21,415 nt of DNA from a virus: positions 1 through 21,415 of IMG/VR virus record IMGVR_UViG_3300047386_000329, one strand, 5' to 3'. Both the position numbers and the translations under genes were made by a program. The notes beneath the pieces were generated by a model. The model searched no databases and had not been told where the DNA came from. It was given only the letters and a program-made list of their open reading frames with translations. Shown piece after piece: positions 1 to 19,739 of this stretch (positions are counted from its first letter, which is position 1; the number at the start of each line of letters is the position of its first letter).

Positions 1-1
1 T

Positions 2-97
2 GACTTTTCAGCAGCGGGTGAGATCCGCGAGCGAAATCACGTGGCCAAGCTGCTCGACACTGAGGCGGCTTTCCACGAGGCTCGCCAAGCAGCATAA
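2..97 (+). CDS. C-terminal end of an upstream phage gene (partial)
   Basis: An open frame enters from the left edge and ends with TAA at 95-97, giving 31 residues that read DFSAAGEIRERNHVAKLL and so on, ending in EARQAA. The stretch is charged, alanine-rich and probably helical. It is followed seven bases later by a strong terminator, which supports it as the true end of a transcription unit. I do not recognise the family and the start lies outside the window. Confidence 0.6.
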   Translation, partial: DFSAAGEIRERNHVAKLLDTEAAFHEARQAA

Positions 98-103
98 CCA
101 ACC

Positions 104-127
104 GGGCCCTTCGGGGCCCTTTTTTTT
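104..127 (+). terminator. Intrinsic terminator with UUCG tetraloop
   Basis: GGGCCC (104-109) and GGGCCC (114-119) form a six-pair stem closed on the very stable C(UUCG)G loop, followed by eight T. It ends the upstream gene and isolates the 294 gene from readthrough. Confidence 0.9.
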
Positions 128-142
128 AGCCACTAAAAGGTG

Positions 143-171
143 TTTACATTATATTAAGAGCAGTTTATAAT
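143..171 (+). promoter_or_regulatory. Sigma70-type promoter P1 of the 294 gene
   Basis: TTTACA at 143-148, a 17-base spacer and a perfect TATAAT at 166-171. Transcription would start near 178, inside the palindrome at 178-192. It lies directly after a terminator, as expected for a new transcription unit. Confidence 0.85.
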
Positions 172-177
172 GAAATT

Positions 178-192
178 AGGAATTGAATTCCT
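178..192. promoter_or_regulatory. Palindrome at the P1 start site, candidate operator
   Basis: AGGAATT-G-AATTCCT is a perfect 7+1+7 inverted repeat beginning about seven bases after the TATAAT box of P1. A site here could bind a dimeric repressor that blocks initiation. The sister leader before the gene at 793 has no such palindrome. Its function is inferred from position only. Confidence 0.35.
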
Positions 193-222
193 GGACTAGG
201 GTAAAAAAGATGCTAAAAGGTG

Positions 223-251
223 TTTACATTATATAGATCTTTTAGTAGAAT
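223..251 (+). promoter_or_regulatory. Sigma70-type promoter P2 of the 294 gene
   Basis: TTTACA at 223-228, a 17-base spacer and TAGAAT at 246-251 (five of six bases of the consensus). The start would fall near 258, giving a leader of about 36 bases that begins with the hairpin at 262-274. Confidence 0.8.
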
Positions 252-261
252 TACCCTATCG

Positions 262-274
262 GCTGCTGAGCAGC
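262..274 (+). promoter_or_regulatory. Leader stem-loop before the 294 gene
   Basis: GCTGC (262-266), loop TGA, GCAGC (270-274) form a five-pair stem at the 5' end of the P2 transcript, just before the ribosome site CTGGAGA at 282-288. The same stem with a different loop occurs at 761-773, so the stem is conserved while the loop is not. A role in mRNA stability or translation is inferred. Confidence 0.6.
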
Positions 275-293
275 TTTAGTTCTGGAGAGAAAA

Positions 294-584
294 ATGACGA
301 CATTTGTTAAAGACGAGTTTGTTTGGGACGGCATGTATCTTATGTATCGTGGCCGTCACGAGGGTTCAGTCAACATGGAGGTTGCACACCCTGACTGCCA
401 CCCCAGCTGGGTAGGTAAGCCCAAGCCCCAGTTCATCGCCCGCTTCAAGTATGGCTACAAGCCCTGGAGAGCGTGGGTAAACTGGCTCTGCAAGAACGTC
501 ACCGTTGAGGAGTACGTTGCCTTGGAGAAAGCCTCCAGCCCGGTCCACGCCATGCGGCATCTTGGCTACAAGGGGAAAGTTTAA
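294..584 (+). CDS. Small aromatic, basic phage protein, unknown function
   Basis: This 96-residue protein has ATG at 294 with GGAGA at 284-288 as ribosome site. It is rich in Trp, Tyr, Lys and Arg, with a Trp cluster in KPWRAWVNWLCKN (about residues 56-68), and has no membrane segment or signal peptide. I do not recognise a family. It sits alone as a monocistronic unit with terminators on both sides, two tandem promoters and a leader hairpin. Such isolated small genes under strong host-type promoters are usually expressed early in infection and often act on host functions, but no specific target can be read from the sequence. Confidence 0.8.
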   Translation: MTTFVKDEFVWDGMYLMYRGRHEGSVNMEVAHPDCHPSWVGKPKPQFIARFKYGYKPWRAWVNWLCKNVTVEEYVALEKASSPVHAMRHLGYKGKV

Positions 585-592
585 AAACCTTC

Positions 593-616
593 GGGGCCTT
601 CGGGCCCCTTTTTTTT
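593..616 (+). terminator. Intrinsic terminator with UUCG tetraloop
   Basis: GGGGCC (593-598), TTCG loop, GGCCCC (603-608), then eight T (609-616). It ends the 294 gene and has the same design as the terminator at 104-127. Confidence 0.9.
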
Positions 617-631
617 GACCATCAACTGTAG

Positions 632-660
632 TTTACATTATGCTAATTCCAGTTTATAAT
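632..660 (+). promoter_or_regulatory. Sigma70-type promoter P1 of the 793 operon
   Basis: TTTACA at 632-637, 17-base spacer, perfect TATAAT at 655-660. The surrounding GTTTACATTAT and AGTTTATAATGAAA are shared with P1 at 143-171, so the two promoters look homologous. Confidence 0.85.
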
Positions 661-722
661 GAAACTAGACGAGATTTTTCTGGGATAGCCTTAACTTATT
701 TTAAAAAATATATAAAAAGATG

Positions 723-750
723 TTTACATTTTCGGTAGACTTGATAGAAT
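723..750 (+). promoter_or_regulatory. Sigma70-type promoter P2 of the 793 operon
   Basis: TTTACA at 723-728, 16-base spacer, TAGAAT at 745-750. The same -10 box and the following TTACC are found in P2 at 223-251. An A/T-rich tract at about 690-718 upstream could act as an UP element. Confidence 0.75.
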
Positions 751-760
751 TACCTAGTCG

Positions 761-773
761 GCTGCCACGCAGC
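761..773 (+). promoter_or_regulatory. Leader stem-loop before the 793 operon
   Basis: GCTGC (761-765), loop CAC, GCAGC (769-773), followed by CTTTACTTCTGGAGA and the start codon. It is the counterpart of the hairpin at 262-274: stem and downstream ribosome site are conserved, the loop has changed. Confidence 0.6.
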
Positions 774-792
774 TTTACTTCTGGAGAAAAAT

Positions 793-1248
793 ATGAAAGC
801 GGTTATCTTCACTCAGTACATGGAAAACTACGGCGCCCACGACTGGGACGGCCAAGGCGAGTGCCCCCAGCGCTGGAAATACAAGGGTGGTGATTGCTTC
901 ATCGTAGAGCTCAGCATTGAGCAGAACCAAAGCAAAGAGTTTTGGGAGGGTGTAGCGTCTTGCATCGAGTACAAATCTGACTATGAGCAGATGTACATGA
1001 CCGGCGAAACCATCGTCGACGACATCGACTTTAAAGAGTCTGACTTTGTTGACCACTGGGAATCTCCCATCTACTGCATCAAGCTGTCCACCGAGGACAG
1101 GCTGCTGTGCAAGCAGGTGATGCGCAAGTATGACTCTGAAGCTACTCCTTACGGTGAGCGTTCATGGTCTCAAAACAAGGACGGCAAGAGCGAGCCTCGG
1201 TGCTTTACCTTCGAGGAAATGGAAGAGCTCAATAGGGGTGCAGCATGA
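793..1248 (+). CDS. Acidic phage protein, first gene of early operon, unknown function
   Basis: This 151-residue protein starts at ATG 793 after GGAGA at 783-787. The N-terminal part, ENYGAHDWDGQGECPQRWKYKGG (residues 11-33 in two pieces ENYGAHDWDG and QGECPQRWKYKGG), has the look of a conserved core rich in Trp, Gly and polar residues; similar small proteins occur in phage early regions, but I cannot name the family. The middle is strongly acidic (ETIVDDIDFKESDF). There is no transmembrane segment. Its stop overlaps the ATG of the next gene (ATGA), so translation is coupled. It is the first gene after the second copy of the promoter-leader module. Confidence 0.8.
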   Translation: MKAVIFTQYMENYGAHDWDGQGECPQRWKYKGGDCFIVELSIEQNQSKEFWEGVASCIEYKSDYEQMYMTGETIVDDIDFKESDFVDHWESPIYCIKLSTEDRLLCKQVMRKYDSEATPYGERSWSQNKDGKSEPRCFTFEEMEELNRGAA

Positions 1249-2717: not shown

Positions 2718-3000
2718 TCTAATCAAGGGTGTTTACCCTAAGCCAAGGAACGATAACGCGCCAAGCTTTGTGATTGGTAAGTTTAATATTAATATCCCTC
2801 AGCTAAGAGAGTTTTTAGATGAGTGGCAGAAGCAGAACCCTGGTAAGGACTGGTTAAACACCGAGGCCAAGGTTGGTAAGAATGGTAAGGCTTGTTGCTT
2901 CGAAGATGACTGGCAGAATGATAAGTCTGCAGCTGATGGATCTGCTGATGCACAAGGTCAGAAGCTAGATCCAGTAGGAGACGACGATATCCCGTTTTAG
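2710..3000 (+). CDS. Small protein with SSB-type acidic C-terminal tip
   Basis: This 96-residue protein starts at ATG 2710 after GGAGGAG at 2699-2705. The N-terminal half reads SFVIGKFNINIPQLREFLDE then WQKQNPGKDWLNTEAKVGKN, a small compact domain with no visible OB fold. The C-terminal third is a disordered acidic linker ending in VGDDDIPF, the same last six residues (DDDIPF) as bacterial SSB, which bind host exonuclease I, RecQ, PriA, RecO and other partners. It is cotranscribed with the Sak3-type protein. Likely role (inference): DNA-bound or annealing-protein-associated factor that recruits host SSB partners. It could also be a divergent SSB whose fold cannot be seen by eye. Confidence 0.7.
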   Translation: MGDLIKGVYPKPRNDNAPSFVIGKFNINIPQLREFLDEWQKQNPGKDWLNTEAKVGKNGKACCFEDDWQNDKSAADGSADAQGQKLDPVGDDDIPF

Positions 3001-3020
3001 GACCCCCATGGTCCGTCTTT

Positions 3021-3063
3021 GGCCGACCCTTTTGCTCAAACGTTTGAGGGTCGGTCTTTTTTT
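3021..3063 (+). terminator. Strong intrinsic terminator of the early operon
   Basis: GGCCGACCC (3021-3029) pairs with GGGTCGGTC (3048-3056) with one G-U pair; the interior contains a further palindrome CTCAAACGTTTGAG; seven T follow (3057-3063). It closes the 793-3000 operon. Confidence 0.9.
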
Positions 3064-3064
3064 G

Positions 3065-3093
3065 TTTACATGAGGATAGAGGTAGGATAAATT
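3065..3093 (+). promoter_or_regulatory. Possible promoter into the structured noncoding region
   Basis: TTTACA at 3065-3070, 17 bases, TAAATT at 3088-3093 (four of six). The -35 hexamer and its preceding G are the same as in the four early promoters. The start would fall near 3100, just before the hairpins at 3105-3219. It directly follows a terminator. Confidence 0.4.
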
Positions 3094-3104
3094 AAATGAG
3101 CGGT

Positions 3105-3219
3105 GTCAAACAGGTTGTGGTGACCTTTTGACGTGAGAACCGTGGGGAAGGGATGACAGTTACTGGCCGCTCAAGGCCGATTATACTGCCACTCCCTCCA
3201 AATAAACACGTTCTCACGT
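3105..3219 (+). ncRNA. Candidate structured RNA: two stacked hairpins
   Basis: Hairpin 1: GTCAAA (3105-3110), bulged C, AGGT (3112-3115) pair with ACCTTTTGAC (3123-3132) around a seven-base loop. Hairpin 2 is longer: ACGTGAGAAC (3131-3140) with GTTCTCACGT (3210-3219), GTG with CAC after a bulged C, then GG-A-GGGA with TCCCTCC, CAGT (3157-3160) with ACTG (3185-3188), and an apical GGCC/GGCC (3165-3168, 3175-3178). This makes an approximately 89-base interrupted rod. The two hairpins share only two bases and could stack. No known RNA family was recognised and there is no T-run after it, so it may be a leader, a DNA structure (origin), or an independent RNA. Structures were drawn by hand, without energy calculation. 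Confidence 0.45.
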
Positions 3220-3228
3220 TAACAGTTA

Positions 3229-3257
3229 TTTACAATCTAAGCCGCTGAGCGTATGCT
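3229..3257 (+). promoter_or_regulatory. Possible promoter after the long hairpin
   Basis: TTTACA at 3229-3234, 17 bases, TATGCT at 3252-3257 (four of six). Spacing and -35 box match the early promoters. Transcription from here would give a leader of about 230 bases before the gene at 3497. Confidence 0.4.
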
Positions 3258-3440
3258 ACCGAGCCCTGAGCCGGAGAGATTCCGGAGTTCGTCCACGGAG
3301 ACGCGGGAGGCTGGTTATCCACGAGAGCAGTGGTTAACGTAAGCGCTAATTGCACTAGCGACTGATTTGTAGTAACGCAAAGCTCGTCAATGATGTCAAC
3401 AGCTGTTTATGGAACGGTCTGTATACCCGTATCCGACAGT
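3258..3440. other. Noncoding stretch with serial small inverted repeats
   Basis: No gene is supported here. Visible elements: CCGGA/TCCGG hairpin (3271-3285); GTTATCCAC (3314-3322) facing GTGGTTAAC (3330-3338), eight pairs with one T-T mismatch, whose left arm contains TTATCCAC (3315-3322), eight of nine bases of a DnaA box if the following G is counted as the mismatch; CGCTA/TAGCG hairpin (3344-3360); palindrome AACAGCTGTT (3398-3407). The density of inverted repeats between two replication/recombination operons would suit a replication origin or a structured leader. No tRNA cloverleaf could be fitted. Confidence 0.4.
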
Positions 3441-3467
3441 TTTACGGTCCCTATCCAAATTTATAAT
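3441..3467 (+). promoter_or_regulatory. Possible promoter of the 3497 operon
   Basis: A perfect TATAAT lies at 3462-3467 with TTTACG at 3441-3446, but only 15 bases apart, shorter than usual. The TATAAT lies inside a hairpin-forming palindrome CCAAATT-TAT-AATTTGG (3455-3471). A start near 3474 would give a short leader with the purine-rich ribosome region. Confidence 0.4.
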
Positions 3468-3496
3468 TTGGGGGGAGGAGACTTGGAGGAGCGTTA

Positions 3497-7342: not shown

Positions 7343-7541
7343 CTGCAGCGCGTGGACTGATGTCCCCAAGGGCGATTGCGATGAGTGGGAAGTAGTCGAT
7401 GATGACGGCAATTGCAATAATTGGAAAACGAACGAGGATTGGATACTTATCACTGCCTTTTGGCAGGACATTGAACACTACTGGCGAGATATCGCGCTTT
7501 GGCGCGACCGCCCCACAAACTGGGTATCTGTGAATGGTTGA
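7329..7541 (+). CDS. Small Trp-rich protein with three CxxW repeats
   Basis: This 70-residue protein has ATG 7329 (14-base overlap with the adaptor gene) and AAGG ten bases upstream. It carries three regularly spaced C-x-x-W units, C6-W9, C17-W20 and C29-W32, each preceded by an acidic residue or Asn, then Trp at 38, 45, 52, 58 and 65. Eight Trp in 70 residues with Asp-rich surroundings suggests a small repetitive beta or Trp-packed structure. No family is recognised. Its place between adaptor and first tail fibre suggests a structural part of the tail tip or a fibre attachment factor (inference). The codon use resembles the neighbours. Confidence 0.65.
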   Translation: MASPDCSAWTDVPKGDCDEWEVVDDDGNCNNWKTNEDWILITAFWQDIEHYWRDIALWRDRPTNWVSVNG

Positions 7542-9333
7542 CCATATTAATAATGGCGAGGAAGGTTTTTCCGTAAGGGAAAAATTGAACACCGTCATCG
7601 ACCGCACCAATACCCTCAACGGTATTGAGAATCAGGTTGAGGCAAACAAGAACCTGAGCCAGCAGAACAGCGCCCGTATCAATAAAGAGATACAGGACCG
7701 CATCGATGGCGATCAGGAGCTTTGGGATCACGTTAATGATGTCGAGGACCAACTAGATAACCTCGATGTCTCAATACTTGATGCCAAGATTGATCAGGAG
7801 ATACTAGACCGTATCGCTGGCGATGAGGCTCTAGACGCAAAGATCGACTCAGTAGAGTCCTCGCTAACAGGTGCAATCACATCTGGCGACACTGCGCTGC
7901 AGGGACAGATCGACGCTATCGTTGCCGAGCTTGCCGACGGTGGCACTGGCGCGGGTATGGTCATCTCGCCCACGGAGCCTCCAGTCGAGGACCGTGTCGA
8001 GGGTATGCAGTGGCTCGACTCCACCACAGCCGACGTCTGGATTTGGGATGGCGAGAAGTGGCTGGAGTTCCCGGTCAAAGGTGTGCAGGGAGACCAAGGC
8101 GAGCCCGGAGAGAAGGGCGACAAGGGCGACAAGGGCGACACGGGAGAAGCTGCAGACGTCCCGCCGTGGGACTACGAGTTCACGCCCAACACGCTCGTAC
8201 TGCGTGACAACCTCGGCAACCTGAAGGGCAAGAAGGTTATTGGTCAGACATTGCAGATGACCACTGGCGGCACTACAGACATTGTTGCGCGCCCAGGCGA
8301 TACGATCTTCTACTCCAGCACAAGCAATCAGCTATACAAGAATTCAAAGGACGGGATGCGGGCTGCGCTTGGCATTCAGGACGCTGACAACTTCTTCACC
8401 GACATCAGCGCCGAGACCGGCAACAACACCATCGAGCGTTTTGGTGATGAGGTCTGGGTCACTAACTTTAAAACCGCTGAGGTTTTCGTCGGCACAAAGA
8501 TCGGCAACGGCGTCGAGACCACGGGCAACCTGTCTGCAGGCGATGGCACATTCGGGGGGACCGTAGCCGCCGCAGAGTTCACTGGAGACGGAAGCACCTT
8601 GACTGGGGTTGCAACCTCCGGTTATCAAGACGCTGGTGACTTCAACGACCAACTCACCAACCCTTTTGTCAACTCGTTCAACGCCACCGCCAATGCACCT
8701 AATGGTGTCAATGGCTGGTACAACACCGTCAATATCAGACACCGTGGCGGACAAGGTGACGGTAATCGATACGGCGCTCAGATTGCTGTAGGCATGACAA
8801 CGCAATCGGGGCGATTATTTTTCCGGAATCAAAATTCTGACGCTTGGGGTGAGTGGCAAGAACTTGGTAACGGTATCTCTGCCACGGATGTCACCGCCCT
8901 GTATGAAGGCGGATCAGCGAAAAAGGTTTACACCTATGGGTCAGGTGGGCGCGTCACAGGCAACCTACTAGCCACCAGCGATGTTTACGCCTACTACTCC
9001 GATGAGCGTCTCAAGACAAAGACCGGCGAGATCGAGAACGCACTCGACAAGGTGGAGGCAATCGACTGCTTCTACTACACGCATAACGACATCGCAAGGT
9101 CACTCGGATATGAGGGTGACGATCAGCAGGTCGGTGTATCAGCTCAATCAGTGAAGGCAGTCATGCCCGAGTGCGTTGGACGCGCTCCCATTGATGATGA
9201 TGGCATGGGCGGATCAGTCTCTGGTGAGGACTACATGACCGTGAAATATGAGCGGCTTGTGCCTCTGCTTCTCCAGAGTATCAGTGAGCTTGCAGCACGC
9301 GTGAAGGAGCTTGAAGCCAATGCCGGTCACTAA
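7534..9333 (+). CDS. Tail fibre with collagen-like segment and S74 chaperone domain
   Basis: This 599-residue protein is a probable receptor-binding fibre. Residues 1-130 are heptad-like coiled coil (repeated EIQDRIDGDQEL and EILDRIAGDEAL). A collagen-like stretch of eight Gly-X-Y units covers residues 183-206. A middle beta-rich region has GDGSTLTG, and 'NVNGWYNTVNIRHRG...WGEWQELG'-type repeats near 385-450 as in many trimeric fibres. The C-terminus from S489-D490-E-R-L-K494 is a peptidase S74 intramolecular chaperone: Ser and Lys spaced by five as in phage endosialidases, where the chaperone drives trimer folding and cleaves itself off before S-D. It ends with a helix VPLLLQSISELAARVKELEA. 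It overlaps the preceding gene by eight bases. Confidence 0.85.
   Translation: MVDHINNGEEGFSVREKLNTVIDRTNTLNGIENQVEANKNLSQQNSARINKEIQDRIDGDQELWDHVNDVEDQLDNLDVSILDAKIDQEILDRIAGDEALDAKIDSVESSLTGAITSGDTALQGQIDAIVAELADGGTGAGMVISPTEPPVEDRVEGMQWLDSTTADVWIWDGEKWLEFPVKGVQGDQGEPGEKGDKGDKGDTGEAADVPPWDYEFTPNTLVLRDNLGNLKGKKVIGQTLQMTTGGTTDIVARPGDTIFYSSTSNQLYKNSKDGMRAALGIQDADNFFTDISAETGNNTIERFGDEVWVTNFKTAEVFVGTKIGNGVETTGNLSAGDGTFGGTVAAAEFTGDGSTLTGVATSGYQDAGDFNDQLTNPFVNSFNATANAPNGVNGWYNTVNIRHRGGQGDGNRYGAQIAVGMTTQSGRLFFRNQNSDAWGEWQELGNGISATDVTALYEGGSAKKVYTYGSGGRVTGNLLATSDVYAYYSDERLKTKTGEIENALDKVEAIDCFYYTHNDIARSLGYEGDDQQVGVSAQSVKAVMPECVGRAPIDDDGMGGSVSGEDYMTVKYERLVPLLLQSISELAARVKELEANAGH
8115..8141 (+). repeat. 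Tandem 9-base repeat in collagen-like region
   Basis: Three copies of GGGCGACAA (the last ends in C) encode consecutive Gly-Asp-Lys/Thr units of the collagen-like segment. Such repeats change length by slippage, altering fibre length. Confidence 0.8.
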
Positions 9334-17226: not shown

Positions 17227-17596
17227 TCTCCATAAAGAGGTGTTGCGCGTTAGGCCTTTTTTGGAGCCTGCGCTTGCTTACGGTGGTGATACACATAGCT
17301 ATGTTCACATTGTTAACGGTGTTATTAGCGGCCAGTTTCATCTTTGGCCTACTGAAAACTCGGCTTTGGTGACAGAGATACATGATTACCCCAACAAGAG
17401 GTTGCTGCACATATTTCTTGCTGGTGGTGATCTTAATGAAATAAAGAATCTGCACGGTGATGTTGTACAATTTGCCAAATCTATTGGAGCTGTAGGGTTA
17501 TCACTAACAGGCAGACCTGGGTGGATAAAGGCGTTATCAGATCTAGGTTTTGGTGACAAAGGATTACGTTACGTTATAAAGGAGTTTGATAAATGA
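17213..17596 (+). CDS. GNAT-fold-like phage protein
   Basis: This 127-residue protein starts at ATG 17213. The pattern ISGQFHLWPTENSALVTEIH DYPNKRLLHIFLAGGDLNEI, then VQFAKSIGAVGLSLTGRPGW IKALSDLGF is found in a phage family reading AVVTEi-eYPrkr-LhlwLAGGdL, with the GR-GW--vL---Gf end, which structure searches usually place in the GNAT acyltransferase fold. No clear acetyl-CoA pyrophosphate loop (R/Q-x-x-G-x-G/A) is seen, so it may be structural. It lies between the coiled-coil protein and the ejection-type proteins, overlapping both. Confidence 0.65.
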   Translation: MEAIDLHKEVLRVRPFLEPALAYGGDTHSYVHIVNGVISGQFHLWPTENSALVTEIHDYPNKRLLHIFLAGGDLNEIKNLHGDVVQFAKSIGAVGLSLTGRPGWIKALSDLGFGDKGLRYVIKEFDK

Positions 17597-18090
17597 GCAG
17601 CGGCGGAAAGGGAGATAGTCAAAGCACGTCATTAGATCCAGAGCTGAAATCTAGGCTCATAAAGACGTTTGACCAGGGAGCTAAGTTATCTAGAACTGCT
17701 CCTCTTAATTACACTGGACTAACAATGGCTGCTCCTAGTGCTGCCACTCAGTCCTATATGAATCAAACCAACGATGCTGCCAACCTGCTTGGGTTGGGTA
17801 TGGCTGGAAACCCTACTGACGGGCTTCCAGAGGCGAAGACAGTGAACGGCATGACTGGCTACGCCGCAAACGACTTGTATCAAGATGAGATTGCCAGGCA
17901 GTGGGAGCAAAACCCACAAAAAGTAGGAAACCTGAATAGCTTGGTTCCTAACCTTATGCCAAATCCAAACCAGCCGCAAGGTGGTGGTCAAGGTATGCCA
18001 GGCTACCCCAATTTCCCTGGGTTTCCGGGGTTTCCACCGGGTTATAACTACACTGATATAGCCAACTTCTATAGAGGTAAAACACAATGA
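17593..18090 (+). CDS. Low-complexity virion protein, probable ejection component
   Basis: This 165-residue protein starts at ATG 17593 (ATGA overlap). It opens with SSGGKGDSQSTSLDPELKSR, followed by NYTGLTMAAPSAATQSYMNQ, a pattern seen at the start of internal virion protein genes, and ends with a Pro/Gly/Phe-rich tail (MPGYPNFPGFPGFPPGYNYT). There is no signal or membrane segment. It is coupled to the next, related low-complexity gene. Internal (ejection) protein is inferred from composition and position. Confidence 0.55.
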   Translation: MSSGGKGDSQSTSLDPELKSRLIKTFDQGAKLSRTAPLNYTGLTMAAPSAATQSYMNQTNDAANLLGLGMAGNPTDGLPEAKTVNGMTGYAANDLYQDEIARQWEQNPQKVGNLNSLVPNLMPNPNQPQGGGQGMPGYPNFPGFPGFPPGYNYTDIANFYRGKTQ

Positions 18091-19739
18091 GTGGCGGCGG
18101 AATGCAGAATGGGGCTAGCTCGCCAGGCGGCAAAGGCGGTCAGATGGGTGGCTCCCAGCTTAACGGCATGTCTCAGCAAATTACTGGACCGCAAGGTCCT
18201 ATGATGCAGCCCGATATGACTGGCGGCGGCGGTAAGGGCGGTCAGACTGGGGGCAACACTAAAGGCCCATACGGACCGGGTGAGGGTACTCCCGGTGTCG
18301 CTGTCACGCCAATGCCAAACATGACCGGCATGGTGTCACAAAAAGACAGCGCTCTTACTCAGGGCCTTGGCGGCATGGATCTTTCTATGGATTGGATGCA
18401 GAACGCCATGAATTATCAGGCCCCGCAGCTAGGAGGAGATTACAACGTGGGAGGCCTCGACGGGGACAAGTACCTCGGCAATATGGGGGCGGCAAGTGGC
18501 GGTGGTTACAATGCCTCGATGATGTCGGCCCCCGGCAAGGAGCTTTACGACTACGACCCCGCCCTTGCGCAGGCTCAGTCCTACAGCGCAGCTCAGCTGT
18601 CTGACAAGAACATCAATGACTACATGAACCCATACACTCAAAACGTCATCGATACCACGATGGGTGATCTCAATAAGGCACGTCAACAGGCGCTTAACTC
18701 TACAGGGGCAGCAGCTACGTCGGGTGGCGCATTTGGTGGAGACCGTCACGGCATAATGGAAGCTCAAAACAACGCTGATTATATGGATCAGGTTGCTCGA
18801 TCATCTGCTCAGCTGCGCAATCAGGGCTACCAAAACGCTCAGCAGGCAGCAATGGGTGATGTTAACGCGCTTAATCAGAGCTACCAGTCGAACGCAGGTA
18901 TGGCGCAGCAGTCTAACCTTGCAAACCAATCTGCAAATAACGCAAGAAGCCAGTTTGTCGGCAGCACAGCAAACTCTAACGCAATGCAAACTGCAGCGAA
19001 TAACCAATCTGCTTCTAACCAAGCGAAAGCACTCGGAGCACAGCTTAGCTCTCAGGCATCGATTGCGAACGCTAACAACAGAAACTCAATGCTCAGCCAA
19101 CTAATGGGATATGACAACGCGAACCAGCAGTTCAACGCTAGCATGGACTTTTCAAAAGATCAGTTCAACGCGGGTCAGGATCAACAGCAGTTTACAAACC
19201 AAATGAATGCTGCTAACCAGATGTATGGTATGGGCAACGACCGCTGGAATATGGGTCAAGATGCTATTAATAACCTAGGCCAAGTTGGAGGCCAGATTGA
19301 CGCCATTAACAACCAGTATCTTGGTCAAGGTTTTAACATGTTTAATGGAATGGCCAACTCTCCATTTGAGCAATATCAGTATGCTTTAGGCCCATTAGGT
19401 AGCTTAACTAGCGGCGGATCAACAACCACAAACACCCCCGGAACAAAGTCTATGCTAGGTAATGCAATGGGCATCGGGGGCGCGTTCTTGAAGTCAGACG
19501 CTCGCCTAAAAGAGAACATCAAAAAGGTAGCCACTATCAACGGCATCAACCTTTATGAGTGGGATTGGAATGAAACCGGCAAGCAGGTCGCTGGAGAGCA
19601 AGCCACCTTCGGCGTTATAGCCCAAGAGGTGCTCAACGACCGCCCTGATGCCATCCTAGAGGATTCTAACGGCTGGTTAGTAGTAGACTATGGTAAGCTG
19701 CCGGAAGTGTCTAGAACGGTAATGATGAGGAATCAGTAA
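18087..19739 (+). CDS. Probable ejection protein with C-terminal S74 chaperone domain
   Basis: This 550-residue protein has a Gly/Met/Pro-rich low-complexity N-terminus (1-110), then a helical, Asn/Gln/Ala-rich body. Residues 181-222 carry NPYTQNVIDTTMGDLNKARQ and AFGGDRHG, a pattern common in internal virion or DNA-injection proteins of short-tailed phages. The C-terminus begins S470-D471-A-R-L-K475-ENI and has FGVIAQEVLNDRPDAI: a peptidase S74-type chaperone, with the Ser/Lys pair at spacing five, but ending soon after without the usual long coiled helix. The combination of an ejection-type body and an S74 domain is unusual. Alternatives: a tail fibre with an Asn/Gln-rich shaft. Confidence 0.65.
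   Translation: MSGGGMQNGASSPGGKGGQMGGSQLNGMSQQITGPQGPMMQPDMTGGGGKGGQTGGNTKGPYGPGEGTPGVAVTPMPNMTGMVSQKDSALTQGLGGMDLSMDWMQNAMNYQAPQLGGDYNVGGLDGDKYLGNMGAASGGGYNASMMSAPGKELYDYDPALAQAQSYSAAQLSDKNINDYMNPYTQNVIDTTMGDLNKARQQALNSTGAAATSGGAFGGDRHGIMEAQNNADYMDQVARSSAQLRNQGYQNAQQAAMGDVNALNQSYQSNAGMAQQSNLANQSANNARSQFVGSTANSNAMQTAANNQSASNQAKALGAQLSSQASIANANNRNSMLSQLMGYDNANQQFNASMDFSKDQFNAGQDQQQFTNQMNAANQMYGMGNDRWNMGQDAINNLGQVGGQIDAINNQYLGQGFNMFNGMANSPFEQYQYALGPLGSLTSGGSTTTNTPGTKSMLGNAMGIGGAFLKSDARLKENIKKVATINGINLYEWDWNETGKQVAGEQATFGVIAQEVLNDRPDAILEDSNGWLVVDYGKLPEVSRTVMMRNQ

Follow-up and report, generated by a model that had tools for sequence, protein, structure and literature searches.

Repeated gene-start cassettes with a predicted 5'-leader hairpin in a podovirus-like phage, and their partial likeness to the PeSLs of T4-type phages

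Two neighbouring genes of the viral DNA analysed here (IMGVR_UViG_3300047386_000329, a stretch of 21,415 nt from a marine phage, referred to as the window) encode proteins of 96 and 151 aa without resemblance to each other, and both are preceded by what looks like the same intergenic block. The question raised by this locus is what such a block does in front of unrelated genes, and whether it is a mobile module comparable to the promoter-early stem-loops (PeSLs) of T4-type phages. A preliminary description had placed a UUCG-capped terminator, two promoters, a stem, CTTTA, TTCTGGAGA and a start codon in each of the stretches 101–293 and 591–792, ahead of unlike genes; all of these elements were found in that order and at those places, and the genes are indeed unlike. 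It also proposed that the two leaders be aligned, and the end-to-end alignment of the two stretches confirms that they are copies of one module, with a Smith-Waterman score of 126 compared with 18.5 ± 2.7 (maximum 34) in 500 dinucleotide shuffles. An independent repeat search recovered two blocks between the copies, one of 77 nt at 79% identity and one of 52 nt at 83%. Taken alone, promoter-like sites (18, with 19.8 expected by chance) and terminator-like sites (19, with 15.7 expected) are not in excess, and it is the order of the elements and their shared sequence, rather than site counts, that carry the significance of the cassettes.

All parts lie on the plus strand. The first copy (slot 1) opens with the intrinsic terminator of the preceding transcription unit (104–127; 6-bp GC stem, UUCG loop, T8), followed by a distal promoter, TTTACA-17-TATAAT (143–171), which shares CTAAAAGGTGTTTACATTATAT with the proximal promoter and is probably a duplicate of its core. 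Just 3' of this distal promoter there is a palindrome, AGGAATTGAATTCCT (179–192), with no counterpart in slot 2. Beginning 9 nt past the −10 box of the proximal promoter, TTTACA-17-TAGAAT (223–251), is the 5'-leader hairpin GGCUGC-UGA-GCAGCU (261–275), and then come the putative ribosome-binding segment TTCTGGAGA (280–288) and the 96-aa gene (294–584, start codon at 294). Slot 2 repeats this arrangement, with an intrinsic terminator of the same make 3' of the slot-1 gene (593–616; 6-bp GC stem, UUCG loop, T8), a distal promoter TTTACA-17-TATAAT (632–660), a proximal promoter TTTACA-16-TAGAAT (723–750), the hairpin GGCUGC-CAC-GCAGCU (760–774), again 9 nt past the −10 box, the segment TTCTGGAGA (779–787) and the 151-aa gene (793–1248, start codon at 793). 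Downstream of the hairpin, both slots have CTTTA and then TTCTGGAGA.

A scan of 2.9 million viral contigs for the promoter and hairpin pattern returned three contigs. Two of them belong to the same phage as the window: IMGVR_UViG_3300047373_000550, which is near-identical, has all compared proteins identical and reaches further upstream, and IMGVR_3300047386_000448, which has an identical DUF932 protein in common with the former. The third, IMGVR_3300045135_001196 (L036), is a relative in which the 96-aa protein is 88% and the DUF932 protein 71% identical. The lineage sample thus comprises two distinct phages, all contigs being metagenomic fragments; the relatives gathered by terminase (L006 and L007) stop short of the cassette region. 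At both slots L036 retains the proximal promoter, the hairpin (in one case with the closing pair changed from G-U to G-C) and the Shine-Dalgarno (SD) segment; the distal promoters have no counterpart at its slots and its upstream GC hairpins are not followed by a U-tract. The conserved unit is therefore the proximal promoter, the 5' hairpin and the SD, not the five-part cassette.

The slots of L036 hold the orthologues of the genes in the window (88% identical in slot 1, 38% overall in slot 2), so no gene swap is visible between the two phages of this lineage. The slot-2 leader of L036, however, is 86% identical to the slot-1 leader of the window and only 71% identical to that of the orthologous slot, which suggests, in this small sample, exchange between leader copies. 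The earlier proposal of a mobile cassette that marks sites of gene swapping is thus supported only in part: the similarity of the leaders does not follow orthology, but the leaders of L036 stand at the same two orthologues, and mobility is not demonstrated in this lineage.

In IMGVR_UViG_3300047373_000550 the DNA a short way upstream of the window holds one more copy and a leftward hairpin leader. This third rightward copy, TTTACA-17-TAGAAT...ACGCTGC-TGA-GCAGCATTACACACGGAG, opens the unit of a 100-aa gene and the DUF932 gene, and no terminator precedes it. Back to back with it there is a leftward promoter, TGTACA-17-TAGAAT, followed by a longer and different hairpin (GGTTGCGCAGCATGGGGCTGCAGCAGCTGACC, with −20.4 kcal/mol when the stretch is folded) that lies 9 nt past the −10 box and before GGGAG and ATG. 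All four strong sigma-70-type promoters that adjoin genes (three rightward, one leftward) have a hairpin 9–10 nt past TAGAAT, which therefore lies near the predicted 5' end of the mRNA. In a scan for strong promoters that covered the window, L003, L037 and L036, every one that adjoins an SD-bearing gene start has a hairpin leader, except for the weak site at 17553 (GTGACA-16-TATAAA), and the distal TATAAT promoters have none.

The leader is specific to this lineage. Its role as a general companion of TTTACA/TAGAAT promoters was ruled out, given that other viral contigs contain 73 distinct promoters of this kind (AAAAGNNGTTTACA-16/18-TAGAAT) of which none has a downstream hairpin of at least 5 pairs, including 4 G-C pairs, within 5–12 nt; such a hairpin occurs at 0.46% of window positions per given 3-nt start range. 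Among 84,980 genomes searched for prophage or host copies there are nine matches to the promoter and hairpin pattern, which are attributed to chance because none continues into CTTTA, SD and ATG. BLAST of the leaders against isolated phages gave chance-level matches only, and comparison of the window, L003, L036 and five distant loci with Rfam found nothing at the gathering score (sub-threshold matches only in window 1–900). In predicted folds the hairpin is the minimum-free-energy structure of four of the five rightward leaders and the centroid of the fifth, and the SD is largely unpaired; whole-leader folding energies are not below those of shuffles (z about 0). The stem is invariant across the five sequences of the lineage, with no compensatory change, and its central three bases vary. 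Since it never varies, the case for RNA structure in this lineage is drawn from the leftward leader and from analogy.

The genes behind the cassettes tell more about what the leader belongs to. The 96-aa gene is found in 338 viral contigs of marine phages, and its protein is 63% identical in the T4-like Methylophilales phage Melnitz. In other phages the gene stands behind plain TTGACA-TATAAT promoters without a hairpin; the leader therefore belongs to the start sites of this lineage and not to the gene, and the possibility that it moves as one unit together with the 96-aa gene was ruled out by such ordinary promoters in hundreds of contigs. The 96-aa protein has a confident predicted fold (pLDDT 89), which gave no significant match in the PDB, and it has no match in Pfam or PADLOC; PADLOC gave no match for eight early proteins. 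The slot-2 protein, which has a homolog in the Kyanoviridae phage C48C1, is conserved between the two related phages in an N-terminal ENYGAHDWDGQGECPQ block and has diverged in its C-terminus. Just downstream of the cassettes (1513–1737) a protein with a winged-helix HTH_39 domain is encoded, and the neighbouring genes include a Sak recombinase, DUF932 and ssDNA-related genes, which suggest early timing of the cassette units. Terminase_3, an SU10-type adaptor and NinB/NinG show that the phage is not T4-like; the first two fit a podovirus-like virion, in agreement with the preliminary assignment to podoviruses.

Elsewhere in the window, a gene-free stretch of about 500 nt (3000–3490) lies behind a terminator and a TTTACA-17-TAAATT promoter and is 76% identical to positions 3413–4026 of L036. 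The stretch, with the RNA candidate at 3100–3490, folds at −132.7 kcal/mol (z −2.7, none of 100 shuffles as good), has 13 compensatory pairs between the two sequences and has no match in Rfam or in isolated phages; it is a candidate for a large structured noncoding RNA or a replication origin. Two separate genes, at 7534–9333 and 18087–19739, each end in a Peptidase_S74 chaperone domain.

Cassettes of analogous construction were found in a distant group of aquatic phages (L157–L160 and L164–L167), reached through DUF932 relatives at about 50% identity, in which the order is terminator, promoter block, hairpin, CTTTGGGA and ATG. The promoter blocks, TATGCGATA or CCGTAATAT, were gathered irrespective of folding: 25 of the 26 stand before a gene start, 23 of those 25 have a hairpin next, and 19 have a T-run upstream, which in most cases forms the tail of a terminator hairpin rich in GC. 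Their GATAGT or GATACC is only a putative sigma-70 −10 box, and the hairpin starts about 6–8 nt past that position, compared with 9–10 nt in the window lineage. Six distant loci contain 29 hairpins (2.4 in shuffles). Covariation was assessed in alignment A8, selected by promoter block only, instead of A6, which had been picked for hairpins and is therefore biased. In A8, 91.7% of the cells pair, four of the six stem pairs are altered on both sides by compensatory changes, and the covariation score exceeds 500 of 500 shuffles and all slid controls. Loops are 3–6 nt long, and neither loop nor stem sequences are conserved. A covariance model finds four to five copies in each of the eight distant-group contigs and one marginal match in the other 20 records, none of it in the window lineage; homology of the window leaders to these cassettes is not supported, the best window match to model R1 having an E of only about 1.

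In this distant group gene shuffling around the cassettes is evident from the arrangement of genes, and the pattern is what a PeSL-like exchange of modules would be expected to leave. About 15 gene families have a cassette in front of them. F10 and F16 precede the GP88-like gene F0 in one phage but follow it in another, with a cassette of their own in either position, and F5, F19 and F3 come and go. The cassette before F3 in L165 and that before the unrelated F5 in L160 are 97% identical over 66 nt, from just before the terminator to the start codon, and within the genome L167 an identical leader of ~46 nt stands before two genes that are unrelated. The terminase of L160 is 55–64% identical to those of pelagiphages HTVC027P and HTVC023P, phage 023Pt_psg01 and phage DSL-LC04 (OR003939). 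The last has three leaders with three different hairpins, each followed by ACATAC(A/T)G, and one of them matches the covariance model (E = 8e-5). Upstream of the terminase of HTVC023P (L253), several well-spaced genes have a leader segment, ACTAACAAA, in common ahead of their start codons, which may be a further repeated element of gene starts. In a third phage type (L040; 3430–3520 and 4385–4455) the promoter block AAAAGTGTTTACAAGTTANGGAATTCCATTAG is repeated before two genes, one copy having a hairpin, GGCAATAACGCC, before TTTATGGGAG.

How might such a cassette work? From the sequences come its parts, order, spacing and copy number, its conservation in the relative and the covarying stems of the distant analogues; the transcription start sites, early timing, mRNA protection and recombination mechanism of the following scheme we infer. 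The spacing between a sigma-70 −10 box and the transcription start is established, and by that spacing the start of the hairpin coincides with the first nucleotides predicted to be transcribed. At slots 1 and 2 the terminator would close the preceding unit and a host sigma-70-type promoter would start a new RNA, whose first nucleotides would fold at once into a hairpin of 5–6 bp covering the 5' end, with a strong SD left unpaired about 5 nt further on. The hairpin would most likely slow 5'-end-dependent mRNA decay (RppH/RNase E entry), and it would keep the start region open whichever gene follows, so that any small gene behind the cassette would be expressed well. Copies would arise by duplication and exchange sequence by recombination. 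We consider it somewhat probable that these are insulated gene-start cassettes for early units, in which an RNA hairpin at the 5' terminus shields the mRNA and keeps the ribosome site isolated. A protective and insulating structure at the 5' end is preferred because the hairpin stands at the predicted RNA start, the SD is free, and 5' hairpins are known to hinder conversion by RppH and to make bla mRNA more stable (PMC3997798).

Because the arms of GCTGC-N3-GCAGC never vary, the chief alternative for the copies in the window itself is a DNA operator over the transcription start, through which a phage repressor would shut all early units together. Invariant arms in five copies around three variable central bases are what a palindromic operator would have, and the winged-helix HTH_39 protein encoded just downstream is a candidate repressor; the leftward leader, however, lacks GCTGC-N3-GCAGC and has a hairpin at the same spacing, and the analogous cassettes change the sequence of the stem and keep its pairing, so that an operator appears unlikely. 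The hairpin could instead be a site of translational control, recognised by an RNA-binding protein, of the phage or of its host, that would regulate the ribosome site behind it. This is suggested by the short fixed distance between hairpin and SD (5–10 nt) and by the conserved bases between them (CTTTA or CTTTGGGA), but the unconserved loops and stems of the distant group, with loops of 3–6 nt, offer little for specific recognition, and we consider control of this kind improbable too.

Another way of looking at the hairpin is as a signal to RNA polymerase, acting by an early pause or by put-like antitermination to allow read-through of the downstream cassette terminators. It is placed where nascent RNA exits, and with terminators between units a control of read-through would be useful. 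The put elements of HK022 are longer, two-hairpin RNAs, and a single stem of 5–6 bp without sequence conservation is unlike them; with no match in Rfam either, action on polymerase seems very unlikely. There is finally the notion that recent duplication alone explains the likeness of the two copies and that the hairpin has no function, with which the lineage-specific distal promoters and U-tracts would agree. Against it, the hairpin stays with promoter and SD in L036 in spite of diverged flanks and is also present in the third and fourth leaders, which makes duplication alone highly improbable.

Among known systems, the SAS of Cluster K mycobacteriophages are 13-bp fixed sequences at translation starts, and the ESAS upstream are 17-bp imperfect inverted repeats with a variable spacer, mostly of 4–13 bp (Pope et al., 2011; PMC3203893). 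As in SAS/ESAS, repeated elements are found here at the translation starts of many small non-structural genes; unlike them, the stem has 5–7 bp, its distance from a promoter is fixed and its sequence differs from phage to phage, and the leaders of the window lineage contain no 13-bp repeat of the GGGATAGGAGCCC type. The 5'-terminal stem-loops of bacterial mRNAs such as ompA and papA protect against 5'-end-dependent decay (PMC3997798). The leaders resemble these in having a short hairpin near the predicted mRNA 5' end and then an open ribosome site, and differ from those single leaders of cellular genes in that a single type of hairpin recurs at all putative early units as part of a repeated cassette.

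The PeSLs of T4-type phages (Arbiol et al., 2010, and Comeau et al., 2014, as cited in PMC4503421) are reported to be composite promoter-terminator motifs. Compared with them, the window has the same kind of repeated intergenic element, a strong sigma-70-like promoter with a stem-loop terminator among small accessory genes, and genes are shuffled around cassette copies in the distant group; differences are that the window phage is not T4-like and that what is conserved is another hairpin, additional to the terminator, which lies within the 5' leader and downstream of the promoter. The preliminary name of a PeSL-like module suits the promoter and terminator composite of slots 1 and 2 in a non-T4 phage, as well as the dispersal of copies beyond two genes; it does not extend to the third copy, which lacks the terminator, or to L036, where the whole cassette, U-tract included, is not conserved. 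The window cassette would thus work like a PeSL in part, and it is not placed in that family because it does not come from a T4-like phage, because another part is conserved and because its lineage gives no proof of shuffling.

Phages gain and lose small early genes, often for host takeover or counter-defence, at a fast pace, and newcomers need immediate transcription and translation, which a portable insulated start cassette would explain. We give about even chances to the broader proposal that non-T4 aquatic phages have their own PeSL-like recombining cassettes (terminator, promoter, 5' hairpin and SD) for swapping small early genes, in which the sequence of the hairpin changes and its structure is retained, and that their users include the window phage, the group with HTVC023P/HTVC027P-like terminases and, more loosely, DSL-LC04. 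The signature of promoter, hairpin at predicted +1 to +3 and SD could help to locate the early accessory genes of aquatic phages that have not been cultured. Unlike the PeSLs of T4 phages, these cassettes would carry a structural RNA element at the predicted 5' end of the mRNA, and in this way they would link gene swapping with mRNA protection.
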